A stretch of DNA of 37,639 nucleotides from an uncultured Hyphomicrobiaceae bacterium. GTDB taxonomy: Bacteria > Pseudomonadota > Alphaproteobacteria > Rhizobiales > CALHAX01. The translations under genes were made by a program, and so were the position numbers. The DNA is taken from the NCBI GenBank assembly GCA_937931785.1, contig CALHAX010000129.1, positions 1 to 37,639 of the forward strand, given 5' to 3'. The notes below the pieces were generated by a model, which did no database searches, was not told where the DNA came from, and saw nothing but the letters and a program-made list of their open reading frames with translations. This document shows, in pieces, positions 9,186 to 22,546 of the stretch (its first letter is position 1; the number at the start of each line of letters is the position of its first letter).

Positions 9186-9653
9186 ATGCAAGTCTGGACG
9201 ATTTATCTCTCCGGTGAAATTCACACGGACTGGCGCGAGCAAGTCATCGCCGGGTGCGAGGCCGCCAACCTGCCTGTCGAATTCACAGGTCCGGTGACAA
9301 ATCACGCCTTTTCAGACGACTGCGGTGTTGCCATTCTGGGCGCTGAGGACAAACCGTTCTGGAAGGATCACAAGGGCGCAAAGCTGAACGCGATCCGCAC
9401 GCGAACTCTTATCGAGAATGCAGACATCGTCATCGTGCGATTTGGTAGTGAATACAAACAGTGGAATGCAGCGTTTGACGCCGGCTACGCCGCAGCATTG
9501 CAGACACCGTTGATTGTCATGCACGCTTCAGAGCACACGCACCCTCTCAAGGAAGTCGATGCCGCCGCCTTGGCCGTCGCCGAAACGGCAGAAGAAATTG
9601 TCGCGGTCTTGCGATATGTGACAACGGCTGATTTGAAGCCCGTTTCAAGCTGA
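9186..9653 (+). CDS. ytoQ: YtoQ family protein
   Basis: A 155-residue cytoplasmic protein of the YtoQ family, recognised from its start VWTIYLSGEIHTDWREQVI, the central FWKDHKGAKLNAIRTRTLIE and FGSEYKQWNAAFDAGYAAAL. The fold resembles nucleoside 2-deoxyribosyltransferase-like proteins and the biochemical function is not established. It starts 42 bp after the L,D-transpeptidase gene on the same strand and may be co-transcribed. Its 3' end overlaps the convergent adenylate cyclase gene by 9 bp. Confidence 0.85.
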   Translation: MQVWTIYLSGEIHTDWREQVIAGCEAANLPVEFTGPVTNHAFSDDCGVAILGAEDKPFWKDHKGAKLNAIRTRTLIENADIVIVRFGSEYKQWNAAFDAGYAAALQTPLIVMHASEHTHPLKEVDAAALAVAETAEEIVAVLRYVTTADLKPVSS

Positions 9654-11339
9654 CGGCTGAGTGGCCCTGATGTCGCGTGCCTGCTTGAACCCGAAAATAG
9701 CGACTGGTTTCTGCAAACCTCTGATTTCCGTTTCGGTTTGTGCGTCCGGCGCGAGTGTGATCCCGGACAGCTCTGCCACCCGGTTCGACAAGATCAGTTG
9801 AAGGCCCATTTCGGATGTCAGGGACTCAAGACGGCTCGCTGTGTTCACAGCCTCACCAATGACCGTCAATGTGCCAGCATGCGCATAGCCGATCTTGCCA
9901 AGCACCACATTGCCAGCGTGTAATCCGATACCGACGCGAACAGTCTCGCCAATTTCAGGGGCCAGACGCTCTGCAAGCGCGTCGAGATCCGCGTCGATCC
10001 GGGCTGAGGCACGCAAGGCCTGTCTCGCCGCTTCCTCTGGTGGGCAATCGCGACCAAATACGGCCATCATGCCGTCGCCCATGTATTTATCGATCCACCC
10101 CCCCTCATCACACACAATCCTGGATGCAGTGGCGAAGAATTCATTGAGGATGAAAACCACATCATAGGGTAGTTTGCCTTCGCTCCACCGCGTGAATCCC
10201 CGCACGTCCATGAACATGATCACAAGCTCGCGCTCGACACCCGTTTCCTCTTCCGTCTGCGCGGCGACCATGTGCGCAATCGTGTTTCCGTGCGCATTGG
10301 GCACCAGACGAAAGACCGTGAGCGGTGATTTTGGTTTGATCTGACAGGCAAGACGAACATTCGGCCCGGCGTCGATACTCTTCAGTGTGCGCCTTTCGGC
10401 AGCCTCAGGCGGATGCAAAAGCGCAAGTCCCTGATCGATCCGGACGCGGCACGTGGAACATCTCGCCCGCCCACCACAAACAGATGTATGCGGCACATTG
10501 TTCTGGCGGCTGATCTCCAAAAGTGTCGGTCCGGGAACGGCACGCACATCAGGTCCGTGGACATAGCTTACCGCAAGGCGTTCGCGTGAACGCCTCAGGA
10601 CGCGGCGATATACGTACTGTGCGACAAGCAACCCGAGAAGAACGGCAAAACCGATCTGCATCCATTGGGCGATAGCACCAAGGGTCTCGAAGCCTGCCTG
10701 ATCGGGAAAACGCAATTGTTTCATGATCCGCGCCAGGGCTCCGGGTGCCGCTGCCCTGGTTTCAGCGGCCCGCGCGGCCACCGGAAACCCGGTGTATGAC
10801 AGCAGGGGTATTGCAACGGCGGTTGTGTAGACCACCCCCTGGAACCGTTCGTAAACCGGTGACAGGCGTAGCCAGAAATGCAAGCCGATGCAGGCATGCA
10901 CCCACACAAGCGTCATCAGGATAGCGGTCTTGATCGCCTGGTCCGGCCACATGAGAATGAGCGCATAAAGGTAGTAATCATTCGTATTGAACAGCTCTGC
11001 TGCGAAGCGGTTTGTGACAACATGCGGAATGAGAAACAGCGGGATCAGAAGTCCGGAGCCGATTTGCACACCTTCCCAGGTTGGCATGCGCCAAGTGGTG
11101 CGTTGCGCCAGCTTCACAAAGGCAAGCGCGATGTGGATGAGAATGGCGCTTACCAGGATTATTTTCCCGGGTAATGATCGTGTAACCCCCCAGCGTAAAG
11201 TCTGAAACCAGTCCATGGCTCCGATGCTGATAAGCCCGAGTGCATGATTTGCGAAATGTGTCAGCACGAATGCGAACAAGATCAGCCCGCTGGCCAATCG
11301 AAGCCATTGGTCTGTGCGTCCACGCATGAGAATGTGCAT
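9645..11339 (-). CDS. Membrane adenylate cyclase (class III) with six-helix anchor and [2Fe-2S] domain
   Basis: A 564-residue three-part protein. Residues 10-250 contain about six membrane helices with His at approximately 28, 32, 69, 106, 148 and 154, like the diheme anchor of succinate dehydrogenase. Residues 255-345 are a ferredoxin domain with CX5CX2CX34C (Cys288, 294, 297, 332). Residues 370-560 are a class III cyclase: metal Asp in FMDVRGFTRW (378) and GDGMMAVFG (422), then TVIGEAVNTASRLE with transition-state Asn and Arg. The layout resembles redox-responsive CyaC of Sinorhizobium meliloti, so cAMP synthesis tuned by quinone or redox state is likely. ATG 11339 is chosen because AGAGGG lies just upstream; a GTG at 11360 is the alternative. 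Confidence 0.88.
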   Translation of the reverse strand: MHILMRGRTDQWLRLASGLILFAFVLTHFANHALGLISIGAMDWFQTLRWGVTRSLPGKIILVSAILIHIALAFVKLAQRTTWRMPTWEGVQIGSGLLIPLFLIPHVVTNRFAAELFNTNDYYLYALILMWPDQAIKTAILMTLVWVHACIGLHFWLRLSPVYERFQGVVYTTAVAIPLLSYTGFPVAARAAETRAAAPGALARIMKQLRFPDQAGFETLGAIAQWMQIGFAVLLGLLVAQYVYRRVLRRSRERLAVSYVHGPDVRAVPGPTLLEISRQNNVPHTSVCGGRARCSTCRVRIDQGLALLHPPEAAERRTLKSIDAGPNVRLACQIKPKSPLTVFRLVPNAHGNTIAHMVAAQTEEETGVERELVIMFMDVRGFTRWSEGKLPYDVVFILNEFFATASRIVCDEGGWIDKYMGDGMMAVFGRDCPPEEAARQALRASARIDADLDALAERLAPEIGETVRVGIGLHAGNVVLGKIGYAHAGTLTVIGEAVNTASRLESLTSEMGLQLILSNRVAELSGITLAPDAQTETEIRGLQKPVAIFGFKQARDIRATQPSA

Positions 11340-11457
11340 TGTAGCCCTCTTGATCGACACACACCGGCAAGCTGGCCTTATACACCTTCATCCCCAACCG
11401 CACATCCGCTTCAATTCGGCAATTGCAGATGCCCCTCCTGCAATGGGATAAGGATGT

Positions 11458-14741: not shown

Positions 14742-16031
14742 GTGTTGTCTATGCCGCTTGTCGAAAAGTGCGGAGTAGCAAACTCTATGCGGAGCAATCT
14801 GGTGCAATCGTCGTTTCAGAAACGCTTCACAACCGAATCCACTGTCCCAAAAACGGGCACTGATGAAGCAACAACACGCCAGATCATAAAAACCGCACTT
14901 ACGATAGAAGACGTGGCGCAGCTCGAAGATGACTGGCGCGACCTTGAGCGCAGGTCAAATGAGTCCTTTTGCTTCTTCCAGACGTATGAGTGGTGCTACA
15001 ACTGGTTGAGAAAAAATGAACACTCCGATGTATGGAGCGTGCAGGGATGCCGTCCTGTCATTGTGACTGTGTTTGAAGATGGTCAGTTGCAACTCGTCTG
15101 TCCCATGATGAAGTGCCGCCTGACCGGAGGCGTGACGATCCTGACGGTCGTGGGAGAGCCACATACGCAATATGGAAACGTTCTTCTTGCTCCCGTTGCG
15201 GACCCTACGCCCTGGTTCAAAGCGCTCTGGCAGGAACTTGGACGTATTCCGGACGTGGATACAATCCGTTTCAACGCAGTTCCGGCGAAAAGCCCGTTCG
15301 CGTCATTCCTGTCAGCGCACGCCACGCGTGTTGAAGTGCCGAACGAAACGGCATTCATGGACTTTTCGTCCTTCCCTGATTGGGCTGCGTTTCAGTCGAC
15401 ACAAGGCACCAGCATGCGCCGTGGGCGGGCCAAGCGTCGCAACAAACTGGCACGCGAAGGGGATGTGACCTTCCACGTGCTTCGTCAAGGGGATGAGGGG
15501 TTTACGGACGCTGTAATCGACGCCGCTCGTATGAAACAGGACTGGTTGCGGGAAACCGGGCGCGTAAGCCTTGGAGTATCGTGGACCCTGCTCGCAGAGT
15601 TTCTGGCAGAATACCCGCGCAACCCCGATCCTTCCTCAGGTATAATTGCACATGCCATACGGCTGGACGGGCGCAACATCGCGATCGAGGTCGGTTTCAT
15701 CAGAAACCAGGAATACTACAGTTTTCTTGGTGGTTTTGACTGGGAGATGAATGCGTTCTCCCCTGGAAAAATCCAGATCGAAATGTCATTCCGCTGGTTT
15801 CTTGAGAACGGTATCCGAAGGTTTGATTTTCTTCCTAATCCCGCTGACTACAAGGCCGGATGGACGAATGAACGCATGGCTGTTTTCGGTTTCGTCTATC
15901 ACAACACATTACGCGGGCGGTTGAACGAAGCTCTTTTCGGCGCCGCGGCTCGTCAAAAAGTCAAACAGATCTATTATCGCATTCCGAAGAACTTTCGCGC
16001 GCTCGCCAGCAGCACGTATCAGGTGCGTTAA
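14742..16031 (+). CDS. CelD/BcsL-type GNAT acyltransferase (polysaccharide modification)
   Basis: A protein of about 429 residues with a C-terminal CelD/BcsL GNAT domain: FHVLRQGDEGF, ARMKQDWLRETGRVSLG, RLDGRNIAIEVGFI, YYSFLGGFDWEMNAFSPG and the FDFLPNPADYKAGWTNE block. The N-terminal half holds the second, degenerate GNAT-like fold typical of this group (FQTYEWCYNWL). Members sit in exopolysaccharide and cellulose loci and are thought to acylate sugars in the cytoplasm. It is first of a same-strand group, ending 5 bp before the flippase gene. The start is uncertain: GTG 14742 has AAGGA (14726-14730) 11 bp upstream; ATGs at 14751 and 14787 are alternatives. Confidence 0.82.
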   Translation: MLSMPLVEKCGVANSMRSNLVQSSFQKRFTTESTVPKTGTDEATTRQIIKTALTIEDVAQLEDDWRDLERRSNESFCFFQTYEWCYNWLRKNEHSDVWSVQGCRPVIVTVFEDGQLQLVCPMMKCRLTGGVTILTVVGEPHTQYGNVLLAPVADPTPWFKALWQELGRIPDVDTIRFNAVPAKSPFASFLSAHATRVEVPNETAFMDFSSFPDWAAFQSTQGTSMRRGRAKRRNKLAREGDVTFHVLRQGDEGFTDAVIDAARMKQDWLRETGRVSLGVSWTLLAEFLAEYPRNPDPSSGIIAHAIRLDGRNIAIEVGFIRNQEYYSFLGGFDWEMNAFSPGKIQIEMSFRWFLENGIRRFDFLPNPADYKAGWTNERMAVFGFVYHNTLRGRLNEALFGAAARQKVKQIYYRIPKNFRALASSTYQVR

Positions 16032-16036
16032 CCAGG

Positions 16037-17431
16037 ATGTCAGCAACCACGGGAACGACGCCTCCGTCAGGTGAACATACGACACATCTCACCAACCTGT
16101 GGCAACGCCATGGGGCGACAGTTGTTGCCTTTGCAATCCGCGTACTGAGCGCCGTTCTGGTCTTTGTACTCCAGGTGTTTCTTGCGCGCAGCATGGCGCT
16201 GGAAAGCTATGGCCTGTTCATCACGGCTTCCACCTGGATTATCGTGATTGCCGGTTTTTCAGTTCTTGGGTTCGGTGAGTCAGCACAGCGCTTTCTACCT
16301 CGCTACATTCTGCGAGAGCGTTGGCAGGAAGCACAAAGGTTTTTTCACTTCGGACTGGCCGCAACGGTCGGGGTCGCACTCTGCATCGCATTCTGTGTTG
16401 CTGTTTTCGCCGTGGCAACATGGCCGGAGGAGAACGTCTACCGCACAGTCGTACTCCTTATTGCGATTGGTCTGCCGTTCGCAGTTGCAGATTTCTTCCT
16501 TGAAGGGGTCGGTCGCGCCATGGGCTGGTTCAAGTTGGCGATTGTTCCGACATACATCATCCAGCCAGTTCTCATGGTCGGGGTCTTGATTGTGGCGGTT
16601 TATGCCGGTGCCGAGATTTCCGTTGTTCTTGCAGGTTCTACGCTCATAGCAGTGACTGCGGTTCTGACCTTCGCGAAAGGTGTGATCATCGCACGCCGGT
16701 TGCGTGTAGCGGCTGGATACCCGGATGTAGCGCGCAGACAATCGACGCCATCTTTGCAACCTTCCGTGTGGAGCCGTCATTGGCTCCGCGCATCCCTCCC
16801 TCTCATGGCCGTATACGGGATGGACGACTTCCTGGTTTACTCAGATGTCTTGCTGCTCGGTCTGTTAGCGACACCTCAGGATGTCGGCATTTATATCGCG
16901 GCGGTGCGGTGTCTCGCCATTGCGAATTTCATCCACTACGCATTCATGCTTGTCACGGCTCGAAAGTTTTCACTGGCCAACAGTGGAACAGACCGGCACG
17001 CTTTGCAGCGTGAAGTGCAGGAGGCGTCGCAGGCAACATTTCTGCTCACAGTCCCCGCCGTCCTCATCACACTCGCTGCAGGATATCCGTTGCTGCGTCT
17101 GTTCGGTGAAGCTTTCACCGCAGCATGGCCTGTGATGATCATACTGGGCGCCGGTTTTATTGTGCGCGCTTCCATCGGCCAGGCCTTCGATCTTCTTGCT
17201 GTTACGGGCCACGCGCGCGCCATTGTCTGGATTTCCATCACGTGTCTGGTAGCGAATGTACTGTTGTCGCTCGCATTGATCCCTCTGTTTGGCCTCATCG
17301 GTGCCGCAGCTGCGACCTCTGCTGTAATGATGTTCCGTGTAATCGGCCTGGCGCTCGCCACAGAACGGTTAACCGGAATTTCCTCCATAGCGTTCATCAC
17401 AGCGCCGAGGTTGGCACGCAACCTGCCTTGA
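16037..17431 (+). CDS. Polysaccharide flippase (MOP superfamily, Wzx-like)
   Basis: A 464-residue integral membrane protein with about 12 hydrophobic helices spread over its length, starting at TVVAFAIRVLSAVLVFVLQV. Segments such as ARSMALESYGLFITASTWI, GFGESAQRFLPRY and MDDFLVYSDVLLLGLLATP are typical of the oligosaccharide-flippase branch that moves undecaprenyl-linked repeat units across the inner membrane. It begins 5 bp after the acyltransferase stop and is clearly in the same operon. No polymerase or glycosyltransferase lies in the window, so the repeat unit must be made elsewhere. A short tail after the last helix is unremarkable. Confidence 0.88.
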   Translation: MSATTGTTPPSGEHTTHLTNLWQRHGATVVAFAIRVLSAVLVFVLQVFLARSMALESYGLFITASTWIIVIAGFSVLGFGESAQRFLPRYILRERWQEAQRFFHFGLAATVGVALCIAFCVAVFAVATWPEENVYRTVVLLIAIGLPFAVADFFLEGVGRAMGWFKLAIVPTYIIQPVLMVGVLIVAVYAGAEISVVLAGSTLIAVTAVLTFAKGVIIARRLRVAAGYPDVARRQSTPSLQPSVWSRHWLRASLPLMAVYGMDDFLVYSDVLLLGLLATPQDVGIYIAAVRCLAIANFIHYAFMLVTARKFSLANSGTDRHALQREVQEASQATFLLTVPAVLITLAAGYPLLRLFGEAFTAAWPVMIILGAGFIVRASIGQAFDLLAVTGHARAIVWISITCLVANVLLSLALIPLFGLIGAAAATSAVMMFRVIGLALATERLTGISSIAFITAPRLARNLP

Positions 17432-17480
17432 GCAGTGCGGATAGTGACGCCGTGGATCGCCTCTACGCATCCCTGTCCGA

Positions 17481-18383
17481 GTGAGCGAACCCGTTTTCCT
17501 GATCAGAATGGACTGCCTCGATATGACAATTGCGTCCTCGCGAAGTGTCGCTGCCGTTTTACGCCCAGAACGGTCCTGCAGCATGGTTTTTACGCTGTTG
17601 CTCGCCACATGGGTTCTAATGTTCACCTGGCAACCGAGCTTGGGCGCTGACGGTGAGGTGCATCCAACCAGTTTCATCGCTCCACTGGAACGTGACCGCC
17701 CGTATCGCCTCGTCGTGATAGGTGATTCCGTTGGCGCCAACCTCGCCGATGGTTTGCGATGGACATTCCGCAGAGGGCGCAATGTCAAGGTTCGCAAGCA
17801 GACAAAAGCTGGCACAGGGTTCGTACGAACGGATGTTTACAACTGGCAGCGCGTTATTCGCCGTCTCGCACGCCGCCGAAAGGCCGATATTATCGTCATG
17901 CTGATCGGTGGAAACGACCGGCAGGATATGCGTGTGCGAGGACGCCGCCACGAGCGGTTCAGCAAATCCTGGCGGATCGAGTATGTGAAACGACTTGAGA
18001 CGGCAGCCCGTATGCTCCGAAAGAGCGGCGCAGCAGTATACTGGGTTGGCTTGCCGAACGTGCGCTCCCGGCGCATGTCACGCGACTACACCCGCTTCAA
18101 CGCGGACTACGAGCGCGTATCGCAGAGGTACGGATTGAAATACATCGATATTCGGCACCTGTTTGTCACGCGAAACGGTGGCTACAGCGATTACGGGAAG
18201 AACCTGGATGGACGCCGCGTGCGATTGCGCGACCGTGACGGGATTCACATGAGTAACTCCGGGTCCAAGCTCCTCGGGCGCTACATTGCAGACCACATTG
18301 AGAACGACATGCCTCGAAAAGGCAATCGAAGTGCAAATGCCGGGAGCACAACACGTTTCGTTCGAAAGCGTATCTCTCAATAG
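17481..18383 (+). CDS. SGNH/GDSL hydrolase family protein (DUF459-like)
   Basis: A protein of about 300 residues with an N-terminal signal peptide or anchor (MVFTLLLATWVLMFTW, residues 35-50) and a periplasmic SGNH domain. Block I is LVVIGDSVGANLADG (Ser83), block III IIVMLIGGNDRQDM (Asn145) and block V DRDGIHMSNSGSKLLG (Asp253/His256), so the catalytic set is complete. Between a flippase and an MBOAT acyltransferase, the likely role is adding or removing O-acyl groups on exported polysaccharide, as in alginate-type systems. The start is uncertain: GTG 17481 has no good ribosome-binding site, and ATGs at 17508, 17523 and 17583 also keep the domain. It is rich in Arg and Lys. Confidence 0.85.
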   Translation: MSEPVFLIRMDCLDMTIASSRSVAAVLRPERSCSMVFTLLLATWVLMFTWQPSLGADGEVHPTSFIAPLERDRPYRLVVIGDSVGANLADGLRWTFRRGRNVKVRKQTKAGTGFVRTDVYNWQRVIRRLARRRKADIIVMLIGGNDRQDMRVRGRRHERFSKSWRIEYVKRLETAARMLRKSGAAVYWVGLPNVRSRRMSRDYTRFNADYERVSQRYGLKYIDIRHLFVTRNGGYSDYGKNLDGRRVRLRDRDGIHMSNSGSKLLGRYIADHIENDMPRKGNRSANAGSTTRFVRKRISQ

Positions 18384-18525
18384 TGCTCCTCGCGCAATGA
18401 CATATGGTTTTCCGAATAATCCGTGGCATGAATGTTGCTCCGCGTTAGGATCTTATTAACGACGGAAGCACGCGGCTTGGTAGCGCCGTAGTTACCGGCG
18501 CATGAAGTCAGGACGATACCGCGAT

Positions 18526-20001
18526 ATGCTTTTCCCAACGCTGGAATTCGGATTGTTCTTCATGTTGGTCTTCGGCATCAGCTGGACGCTGTCCGATCGT
18601 CTTGATCTGCGCAAACTGTTCCTGCTTGGAGTCAGTTACTTTTTCTATGGATTCTGGGACTGGCGGTTCCTGGCACTTCTTTTCGCAAGTTCGTGCATCA
18701 ACTACCTTGCCGGACTGGCCTTGTCATACGAGCGCCGTTCCGCCGGACGGAAATGGATCGTTGCCACTGCCATCGTCGCAAACCTCGCGATACTTGGGTT
18801 CTTCAAATATTTTGGCTTTTTCGTTACGTCGATTTCGGAAGTGCTGGTCGCTGTCGGTTTGGCACGCGACATCCCGCTCTTGAACATCATCCTTCCGATC
18901 GGCATCTCGTTCTTCACATTCCAGGGCATCTCCTATGTTATCGATATCTATCGCGATGATATCAAACCGGTACGCAATCCGCTGGACCTGTTCCTCTATA
19001 TTTCCTTCTTCCCGCAACTGGTAGCTGGTCCGATCGTCCGCGCATCAGATTTTCTTCCGCAGCTGAACGTACGCCCGAAGCTGACCAGCGAAACCGTATC
19101 CTTTGGCTTTCTCCTGATACTGGTCGGCTTGTTCAAAAAAGTTGTGGTGGCGAGTTATCTTGCGACGGAAATCGTCGATGATGTGTTCTCCATGCCGGAC
19201 GCTTATTCCAGTCTCGACCTCTACTTCGCCGCACACGCCTTCGTCGTGCAAATCTATTGCGATTTCTCAGGTTACAGCGATATCGCCATCGGTGTTGCCG
19301 CTCTGCTCGGATACACCTTCAAGAAGAACTTTGATCGCCCCCTCAGCGCCTCATCACTCCAGGAACTCTGGCAACGCTGGCACATCTCATTGACGAGTTG
19401 GCTGCGTGATTACCTTTATCGCCCGTTGAAAGGGGCGAAACGCGGCAAGTCGCATATGTACCGCAACCTCGTCATCACAATGATGGTTGCAGGACTGTGG
19501 CATGGTGCGGCCTGGACGTTCATCATCTGGGGCACGCTTCAGGGCTTGATGCTTATCGGCGAGCGGTGGCTCAAGGGCGAAGTGCGCCAGCAGCAACGCG
19601 ATGCGGACGAGAACGCTGTGCCGATGTCCGAGCGCTCCCCTCTCTTGCGCGCTGCGGCTCAGGTCTCGCGCATTCCGATGTTCGGGTGGATTGTGACGTT
19701 GAACGCGTTCGCGCTCACTTCCGTGTTCTTTCGGGCTGCTGACCTCTCCACAGTCAGTGCATATTTTTACGGCTTGCTGCAGTTCACAATGTCTCCAGAG
19801 GTTTTCACCCCCTTCGTGGCAATCCTGATCTTCGGCAGTATCGCCGCACAGTTCAGATCGCCGGAGACGCTCGTGCAGTACGCAAGAACGCTTCGGAAGC
19901 TTAAACCAATGACTGCCGGCGTGTTTATGGGGCTCGCTTTGCTGACCATTGAAATGATCGGCCCGGACGGCGTTGCTCCCTTCATCTACTTTCAGTTCTG
20001 A
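18526..20001 (+). CDS. MBOAT family O-acyltransferase (AlgI-like)
   Basis: A 491-residue polytopic membrane protein of the AlgI branch of MBOAT. It starts MLFPTLEFGLFFMLVFG, the usual opening of the family, then has NIILPIGISFFTFQGISYVI, YISFFPQLVAGPIVRASDFL, the FSGYSDIAIGVAALLGY segment, LWQRWHISLTSWLRDYLY and the catalytic-His region VAGLWHGAAWTFIIWG (His326). AlgI passes acetyl groups from the cytoplasm to a periplasmic acceptor or acyltransferase. ATG 18526 fits family starts better than ATG 18502, which would add 8 residues. The gap from the SGNH gene (about 140 bp) may hold a promoter, though none is evident. A small membrane-protein gene follows after 8 bp. Confidence 0.92.
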   Translation: MLFPTLEFGLFFMLVFGISWTLSDRLDLRKLFLLGVSYFFYGFWDWRFLALLFASSCINYLAGLALSYERRSAGRKWIVATAIVANLAILGFFKYFGFFVTSISEVLVAVGLARDIPLLNIILPIGISFFTFQGISYVIDIYRDDIKPVRNPLDLFLYISFFPQLVAGPIVRASDFLPQLNVRPKLTSETVSFGFLLILVGLFKKVVVASYLATEIVDDVFSMPDAYSSLDLYFAAHAFVVQIYCDFSGYSDIAIGVAALLGYTFKKNFDRPLSASSLQELWQRWHISLTSWLRDYLYRPLKGAKRGKSHMYRNLVITMMVAGLWHGAAWTFIIWGTLQGLMLIGERWLKGEVRQQQRDADENAVPMSERSPLLRAAAQVSRIPMFGWIVTLNAFALTSVFFRAADLSTVSAYFYGLLQFTMSPEVFTPFVAILIFGSIAAQFRSPETLVQYARTLRKLKPMTAGVFMGLALLTIEMIGPDGVAPFIYFQF

Positions 20002-20009
20002 GGCCTGTC

Positions 20010-20384
20010 ATGATCACCAGCGATCCATTCGAAACTGACGACGTTGCAAGCCTGAAAGAGCGCAAGGAAACCGAGGAAACTCTCGCGTCCGTCCGCCATG
20101 CAGGTATAGCGATGGTTGTCGCAGCTGCAGTGCTCCTGACTTTCAATTCGGCAGGGTTGCAAACATGGACCCGCAATCTTGATGGGAATACCATGACGGA
20201 TCGCTGGGTGACGGAGGCCGACAACTGGCACAACCTGATGGCGCGTCTCGGATTCGCAGGGCCAAAAGATGCAGTTCAAACGGCCATTGCCGAAATTCGT
20301 GAAATCGAATGGCCCGGTGGTGTCGATGCAGCACACGCAGATGAAGTTGATTTGGATGACGAGGTCGATGTTGACGCGCAATAG
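20010..20384 (+). CDS. Small single-pass membrane protein next to MBOAT, unknown function
   Basis: A 124-residue protein that I do not recognise. The N-terminal 30 residues are charged (KERKETEETL), residues 32-48 form one membrane helix (IAMVVAAAVLLTFNSAG), and the remainder is probably periplasmic, ending in a strongly acidic tail (DEVDLDDEVDVDAQ). It starts 8 bp after the MBOAT stop and is followed by a plus-strand terminator, so it is the last gene of the cassette. Topology and position suggest an accessory subunit for periplasmic acyl transfer; that is inference from context only. Confidence 0.7.
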   Translation: MITSDPFETDDVASLKERKETEETLASVRHAGIAMVVAAAVLLTFNSAGLQTWTRNLDGNTMTDRWVTEADNWHNLMARLGFAGPKDAVQTAIAEIREIEWPGGVDAAHADEVDLDDEVDVDAQ

Positions 20385-20425
20385 GCACGACGCCAGTTTT
20401 GTCGGTGTTTGTATCAAAAACAAAA

Positions 20426-20459
20426 AAGCAGCCCGGGACGTTCCCGTCCGGGGCTGCTT
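20426..20459 (-). terminator. Rho-independent terminator of the glnB-glnA unit
   Basis: A 15-bp stem (20426-20440 with 20445-20459, one mismatch) closes a TTCC loop. On the minus strand it is followed by a T-rich run (complement of the A tract 20415-20427), which fits intrinsic termination of transcription coming from glnA. Confidence 0.85.
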
Positions 20460-20479: not shown

Positions 20480-20510
20480 TTACACCGAGTAGTACATATC
20501 GAATTCAACC
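20480..20510 (-). repeat. Second copy of the glnA 3' end (displaced fragment)
   Basis: This 31-bp stretch is 29/31 identical to the true end of glnA (20563-20593), including a 24-bp exact match. Read on the minus strand it encodes VEFDMYYSV and a stop codon, exactly the GlnA C-terminus. Its two differences fall at third codon positions (TCG for TCT, GTG for GTC) and are silent. It has no start or upstream coding sequence of its own. It lies between the real glnA stop and the terminator. Confidence 0.9.
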
Positions 20511-20512
20511 AA

Positions 20513-20541
20513 GGCGTCCCGTTATGGGCGCCCTGGTTTTT
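20513..20541 (+). terminator. Candidate terminator of the polysaccharide cassette
   Basis: GGCGTCC (20513-20519) pairs with GGGCGCC (20526-20532) over 7 bp with one G-T wobble, loop CGTTAT, followed by CTGG and TTTTT (20537-20541). The orientation suits transcription from the 20010-20384 gene. It lies inside the 52 bp between the two glnA-end copies. Confidence 0.6.
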
Positions 20542-20562
20542 CCGTGAGCCGTCACTCTACCG

Positions 20563-20593
20563 TTAGACAGAGTAGTACATATCGAATTCAACC
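20563..20593 (-). repeat. Genuine glnA 3' end, partner copy of the direct repeat
   Basis: These are the last codons and TAA of glnA, repeated in the same orientation at 20480-20510 with two silent differences. See the glnA entry and the displaced copy. Confidence 0.9.
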
Positions 20594-21972
20594 GGATGTG
20601 GAGTCATCTCGAAGCGTTCGACTTCTTCCATTTTCAACTCGATGTAACCGTCGATCTGGTCGTCGGTGAAGACGTTACCTTTCTTGAGGTAATCGCGGTC
20701 CTCATCGAGACACTTCATGGCCTCACGTAGCGAGCCGCAAACCGTTGGGATTGCAGACAGCTCTTCCGGTGGAAGCGCGTAAAGGTCCTTGTCCATCGGC
20801 TCGCCCGGATGGATCTTGTTCTCGATGCCGTCAAGGCCGGCCATAAGCATGGCCGCAAACGCCAGGTACGGGTTCGCGGTTGGATCCGGGAAGCGGACTT
20901 CCATGCGCTTGCCCTTCGGGTTCGACACATAAGGAATACGGCAGGATGCGGATCGGTTGCGTGCCGAGTACGCCAGCAGAACCGGCGCTTCGTAGCCCGG
21001 CACCAGACGCTTGTACGAGTTTGTCGACGGGTTCGTGAAGCCGTTCAGCGATTTGGCGTGTTTCAGGATGCCACCGATGTAGTGCAGGCAAGTCTCTGAC
21101 AAATCGGCATACTGGTTACCTGCAAAAATTGCGTCACCATCCTTGAAGATCGACTGGTGCACGTGCATGCCCGTACCGTTGTCACCAAACACCGGTTTCG
21201 GCATGAACGTTGCGGATTTGCCGTAAGCCTGCGCCACGTTGTGAACCACATACTTGTAGATCTGCAGGTGGTCGGCAATTTTCGTCAGCGAACCGAACTT
21301 GATACCAAGCTCGTGCTGCGCGGCAGCGACTTCGTGGTGATGTTTTTCCACTGTCACGCCCATTTCCGTCATGACGGACAGCATCTCGGAGCGGATGTCC
21401 TGGCAACTGTCCACAGGTGGTACGGGGAAATATCCGCCCTTCGTGCGTGGCCGGTGGCCGAGATTGCCCATCTCGTACTGCGTATCCATGTTGGACGGCA
21501 GTTCGGAGGAGTCGAGGCGGAAAGACGTGTTGTAAGGTTCGGATGAAAACCGAACGTCGTCGAAAATGAAGAATTCAGCTTCTGGTCCAAAAAACGCTGT
21601 GTCGCCAATGCCGGTTTGCTTGAGATAAGCTTCCGCCTTGCGTGCGACACCGCGAGGGTCGCGCTCATACAACTCACCCGTGCCTGGTTCGACGATATCA
21701 CAGAAGATCGCCATCGTTGTCTGGGCGAAGAAAGGGTCGAGGTGTGCTGAATCCGGATCGGGCATCAGAGTCATGTCGGACTGGTCGATGTCCTTCCAGC
21801 CTGCGATCGACGATCCGTCGAACATCATGCCGTCCGAGAACATGTCGTCGTCCACCGTGATGATGTCCTGCGTGACATGCTGAACCTTGCCGCGTGGATC
21901 TGTAAACCGCAGATCAACGAACTTCACATCGTTGTCCTTGATCATCTTCATGACATTGCTTGCGTCAGCCAT
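20563..21972 (-). CDS. glnA: Glutamine synthetase type I
   Basis: A 469-residue enzyme of standard GS-I length that joins ammonia and glutamate using ATP; it acts as a cytoplasmic dodecamer. Landmarks are [30 protein letters not shown] (metal ligands), [32 protein letters not shown] and SASCRIP. The adenylylation site is Tyr398 in [10 protein letters not shown], so activity is likely controlled by GlnE. The ATG at 21972 has GGGGAG 5 bp upstream. PII (glnB) is encoded 175 bp upstream on the same strand, the usual alphaproteobacterial order, with a shared sigma-54 promoter; the gap leaves room for a separate glnA promoter. A second copy of its last codons lies downstream. Confidence 0.98.

Positions 21973-22147: not shown

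Positions 22148-22546
<399 letters not shown>

Follow-up and report, generated by a model that had tools for sequence, protein, structure and literature searches.

A displaced copy of the glnA 3′ end behind the complete gene in an uncultured Hyphomicrobiaceae bacterium

A second glnA end in direct orientation

The stretch of DNA analysed here (the window, 37,639 nucleotides) carries the last codons and stop of glnA twice, and the question raised by the locus is how a second end came to lie behind a gene that is complete. Comparison of the sequence with itself bore out the repeat described in the initial annotation, namely two direct copies of 31 bp with 29 identical positions, including an exact run of 24 (20487–20510 and 20570–20593), separated by a gap of 52 bp and with starts 83 bp apart (Table 1). 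The expected number of exact direct pairs of 24-mers in the window is about 4e-6, and this is the sole exact repeat of at least 16 bp found there in either direct or inverted orientation. The local alignment of the copies ends sharply at both edges of the 31 bp.

Read on the minus strand, both copies encode VEFDMYYSV followed by a stop. The copies differ by two silent third-position changes (TCT/TCG and GTC/GTG), as had been claimed; the probability that two random changes in 31 bp are both silent is 0.027, a figure based on two changes only. An in-frame stop lies four codons ahead of the outer copy, which is therefore a remnant and not an alternative end for the enzyme. What is present is thus a remnant of the gene end, in direct orientation, beside a complete glnA. 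The gene is intact, and the outer copy is most likely inert, without a function of its own.

Table 1. Features of the glnA region, in positions of the window
Feature	Position	Strand	Basis
glnA, type I glutamine synthetase, 469 aa, complete	20563–21972	-	Pfam PF00120 and PF03951
Inner copy, true 3′-terminal 31 bp of glnA with the stop	20563–20593	-	Sequence comparison
Outer, displaced copy of the glnA end, 29/31	20480–20510	-	Sequence comparison
Spacer between the copies, 52 bp, 62% GC, single occurrence in the genome	20511–20562	.	Genome search
Terminator-like hairpin, T run on the plus strand, for the convergent plus-strand operon	20507–20541	+	Consensus match and fold
Terminator-like hairpin starting 20 nt past the outer stop, T run on the glnA strand	20422–20459	-	Consensus match and fold
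Convergent neighbour, 124 aa, without Pfam match; follows an MBOAT gene (18502–20001)	20010–20384	+	
glnB (P-II), upstream partner of glnA	22148–22519	-	

Each of the two stops is followed by its own hairpin, and the T runs of the two hairpins are on opposite strands. The initial annotation had placed the glnA terminator beside the outer copy, and a terminator-like hairpin (20426–20459) with its T run on the glnA strand was indeed found there. In view of this hairpin, its further suggestion of the outer copy as the original end is plausible; behind the inner copy, by contrast, the T run of the hairpin is on the strand opposite to glnA. As predicted terminators, the outer hairpin would end the glnA transcript and the spacer hairpin would end that of the plus-strand operon. 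The outer 4 bp of the spacer hairpin (AACC, 20507–20510) belong to the outer copy. The stem thus extends exactly 4 nt into the copy, and GGTT makes up both the first four bases of the copy and the last four pairs of the stem, an overlap for which the chance of the tetramer is about 0.004. This overlap points to a possible junction at a microhomology, with the donor side of the junction suggested only by the symmetry of the stem.

When the 3.66-Mb genome was searched, the spacer hairpin was found once at up to three mismatches and the 317-bp region was also found once, in searches that a short diverged copy might escape. The DNA between the copies is likewise a single occurrence, and at 52 bp it is too short for its composition to be judged. 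With a GC3 of 0.70, glnA ranks high among the 22 window genes measured, one of which exceeds it. As this is within the range of the window genes, glnA does not have a foreign look. Elsewhere in the window, a minus-strand gene (9645–11360) encodes a protein that joins a 2Fe-2S ferredoxin domain to a cyclase catalytic domain.

glnA and rpsI ends in other genomes

The comparison with other genomes reaches the order and the class, and the family of the window is represented by this genome alone. Of the 40 other genomes searched in the order, 38 had a best glnA match of 67–82% identity, and the most similar glnA proteins found were 82% identical in one search and 80% in another. In 106 of 109 other glnA loci glnB is upstream of glnA, often with an nnr gene beyond it. 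The five genes that follow glnA in the window (14742–20384) were matched in none of these 109 loci, 29 of which include a flank of only about 1.5 kb. The second-best site for the last 31 bp of each locus's own gene scored no more than 22/31 in the 109 loci, with downstream flanks of 0.8 to 10 kb, versus 29/31 here. Five loci reach 22/31, and among them is L102, from an alphaproteobacterial MAG, in which the glnA end is duplicated locally at a spacing of 38 bp with DNA past the stop included. A narrower glnA-end pattern matched twice in this genome alone (112 genomes scorable of 397 in the order and nine of 385 in the class). The arrangement seen in the window recurred in no other genome searched, none of which is a near relative.

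The frequency of such pairs was assessed by counting local direct pairs with at least 29/31 identity within 25–300 bp in 1.52 Mb of sequence (80 loci and the window). Of the 109 pairs, 63 were abutting and 42 were removed for low complexity or by layout filters. The four kept comprised the window pair, two rows from L095 and a row from L106 extending into N; the L102 duplication is below the identity limit of this count.

A broader glnA-end pattern was matched in 280 of 397 genomes of the order, six of them with two matches. After leaving out the present genome, which had been chosen for the feature, a displaced direct copy behind glnA was found in three of 279 other scorable genomes (G170, G279 and G789). 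Two further candidates were dropped, G093 with two complete glnA genes and G805 with two near-identical ends at contig edges. glnA is complete in G170 and G789 and truncated by the end of the contig in G279. In G789 (L121, 3059–6340), the repeat is 59/60 bp and the 3,162 bp between the copies include HlyD, MacB-like and ABC transporter genes. In G279 (L122, 2394–4214), the repeat is 95/100 bp and the 1,621 bp between the copies hold a 488-aa reading frame in DNA of 40% GC. No Pfam or PADLOC match was found for this frame, and a defence or other function for the insert was not supported by either. The displaced end in G170 (L126, 1417–2673) is decayed, with 216 identical positions in about 235 columns, a frameshift and a stop. 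It has its own terminator-like tail and is found about 1.0 kb behind the real end, with 792 bp containing a DUF992 gene between the copies.

Sixteen stretches from sister genomes, one of which reaches only 1.3 kb downstream, were searched for empty sites, and no close match to the inserts or to their outer neighbours was found. The only four matches, at 30–32% identity, were to transporter or GGDEF proteins. Insertion in G789, G279 and G170 is consequently deduced from the repeat alone.

As a control we used the end of rpsI, which is usually the last gene of its operon. The rpsI pattern was matched in 323 of 387 genomes, two of them with two matches. The second match in G118 was rejected as a chance match, being 286 kb away and of differing sequence. 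In G299 (L149, 1131–5158), a displaced rpsI end with 201 identical positions in about 212 columns was found 3.8 kb behind a complete rpsI. Two of the frames between the copies were profiled with Pfam; one gave a weak acetyltransferase match and the other none. Stranded ends are thus also found behind another conserved gene. The idea that glnA is a hot spot was discarded, as the difference between three of 279 for glnA and one of 323 for rpsI is too small to support it, and the patterns used were unequal in length and stringency.

Origin of the displaced end

The 31-base copy is most probably a minor scar left by recombination or by miscopying of DNA, real but fairly ordinary. Between these, we favour one-sided recombination, tentatively, in the form of a glnA from a near relative that replaced the resident gene and left the resident's end behind as the outer copy. 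The incoming DNA would have come from a close relative and carried glnA, its 3′ flank and its terminator. One side would have been joined by homology inside or above glnA, and the other at the four bases (GGTT) that the stem of the donor terminator shares with the final codons of the resident glnA. This would yield a complete gene with a new flank of 52 bp, behind which come the old gene's last 31 bp and its terminator. Such a foreign donor, direction of replacement and join at GGTT would fit the silent differences between the two copies, their two different flanks, the spacer with no second occurrence and the extension of its stem into the copy, as well as the larger cases in other genomes. 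Of the two ideas in the initial annotation, recombination that imported a foreign glnA end is the one that agrees best with the silent differences, the sharp repeat edges, the single-occurrence spacer and the four-base junction. Against replacement, neither a donor nor an empty site was found in the genomes searched, none of which is of the same family, glnA does not look foreign by its GC3, and the insert of 52 bp is without a gene, unlike those in G789, G279 and G170. Near-identical copies also demand a near-relative donor, in which case the spacer and the outer flank might be expected to be more alike.

Almost equally likely, and a serious possibility, is a template switch inside this genome. 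Here, replication would have stalled at the spacer hairpin and slipped from the GGTT at the foot of the stem to a GGTT in glnA, copied 27–31 bp to the stop codon and returned to the template, with the two changes arising later. The copy does start exactly at the GGTT common to the stem and the gene, beside a strong hairpin, and once 27 nt of it are deleted the stem is joined again to TTTTC, a tail more like that of a terminator. This account needs no donor and explains the small size. Short tandem or template-switch duplications give small local copies, and the window resembles them in being a small local copy, here adjoining a hairpin. Local duplication of a glnA end at a spacing of 38 bp is exemplified by L102, but there the DNA after the stop was copied too and in the window only the 31 bp. 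Unfavourable to a template switch are the silence of both differences (0.027 if random in the copy), the lack of any microhomology in the sequence at the return point, and the presence of nine GGTT sites in glnA, which leaves the choice of the last one unexplained. The initial annotation had attributed the two differences to two functional alleles and not to a recent slip with random mutations; overall, its interpretation was supported in part.

The remaining readings are less probable. Islands that integrate at the 3′ ends of genes restore the gene end and leave a displaced copy at the far side, and such integration requires an integrase and a constant core. The initial annotation had proposed that an element of this type integrated at the glnA 3′ end and was later lost. 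With all but 52 bp of an element inserted by a site-specific recombinase gone, the shape would fit, as there is a restored end, a displaced end, an exact 24-bp run and two differences that lie distally. Elements are also known to integrate at the 3′ ends of genes, for example SGI1 at trmE (PMC8409611). We nevertheless consider a lost element unlikely, and the proposal was left without support from either recombinases or a constant repeat length. The four cases all differ in repeat length (31, 60, 100 and about 235 bp), a spread not expected from a single recombinase core. No recombinase was found among the 31 window proteins given to Pfam, two of which had no match of any kind, and the two Phage_integrase matches and one Resolvase match in the whole genome are all on contigs other than that of glnA. 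An integrase near glnA in relatives, for which the initial annotation had advised a scan, was not seen either; the glnA contigs of G170, G279 and G789 gave no Phage_integrase or Resolvase match, making four of four displaced-end genomes.

Displaced glnA ends were also sought in viral, phage and plasmid DNA. Among viral contigs, a longer glnA-end pattern had no matches and a shorter one had four, none of them a displaced end (two complete glnA, one glnA truncated by the stretch available and one chance match). Two phage records were matched, both Acinetobacter phage MD-2021a, and the one examined holds a complete glnA. This 90-kb record (L114) carries glnA, ubiC, ubiA and a tRNA gene at one end and is likely host chromosome beside a prophage. 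Ten plasmid records were matched; of the three examined, two from Rhizobium leguminosarum hold a glnA with an internal deletion, and a 33-bp partial match (E 0.3) in a Pseudomonas plasmid (H8) was taken as chance. No glnA integration site was named in the titles and abstract openings listed by the literature searches, and the one listed paper that was checked for its mention of glnA concerns, in the passages available, islands bounded by tRNA genes.

Retention of the double end for a function is very improbable. It could serve as overlapping terminators of the convergent operons, or as a 31-nt antisense tail of the plus-strand operon directed against the glnA message. The T runs of the hairpins serve opposite operons, so the messages would overlap, and the region folds strongly (z −6.3); however, the two terminator-like hairpins account for the strength of the fold. 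The initial annotation had listed a conserved role such as an RNA structure, or the same two copies in all relatives, as contrary evidence. No Rfam match for the region was found at E values up to 1, and the second point was addressed only at a distance, the same two copies being absent from every other genome searched, none of them near. Least probable is that a longer segment with its end at the glnA stop was duplicated in tandem and the second unit then deleted almost entirely. It would yield the same order of parts, and glnA remnants with large internal deletions do exist, as in two Rhizobium leguminosarum plasmids where such a gene is beside trxA (L112, 3434–4033, and the same place in L113). 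However, the spacer should then have a second copy upstream in the genome, and only a single occurrence was found. That the spacer is no recognisable copy of other DNA in the genome speaks against a plain tandem duplication.

Significance and relation to known systems

When the end of a conserved gene is displaced, it preserves a legible record of recombination, in which the old and the new end can be compared base by base. A broader reading, which we regard as doubtful, is that the ends of conserved operon-final genes (glnA, rpsI) are repeatedly used in this order as integrase-free anchors for the uptake of cargo. If true, incoming DNA would pair with the gene, add DNA behind it and strand the old end as a datable marker, and the window would be the smallest case, with a terminator as its sole cargo. 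Should the glnA and rpsI cases prove typical, scanning many genomes for stranded ends would give a measure of gene gain without integrases. On its own, the case in the window changes little.

Several known systems can be set beside the locus. Integration of the SGI1 type involves an integrase and a constant core, and neither is seen here. Displaced gene 3′ ends generated by one-sided recombination have been proposed in Vibrio, for type VI effector arrays, and for Rhs genes (PMC5361080). In the passages available of that source, the effector 3′ ends and orphan immunity genes of Vibrio cholerae and the orphaned 3′ regions of Rhs genes share with the window an old end found behind a new version and the lack of specific integration sites. 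In those systems the gene ends vary and new specificity is gained, unlike in glnA, a conserved housekeeping gene whose product stays the same. Homology-facilitated illegitimate recombination has been described in Streptococcus pneumoniae, Acinetobacter baylyi, Pseudomonas stutzeri and Escherichia coli (PMC3240628). As set out in the passages available, it resembles the process favoured here in having a homologous side and an illegitimate join and in being able to leave a remnant of the resident gene. That work is experimental, in transformable bacteria and E. coli, whereas the event in the window is deduced from one genome and has no known donor. On the favoured reading of replacement by one-sided recombination, the window would hold a small scar of a known kind at an unusual gene.
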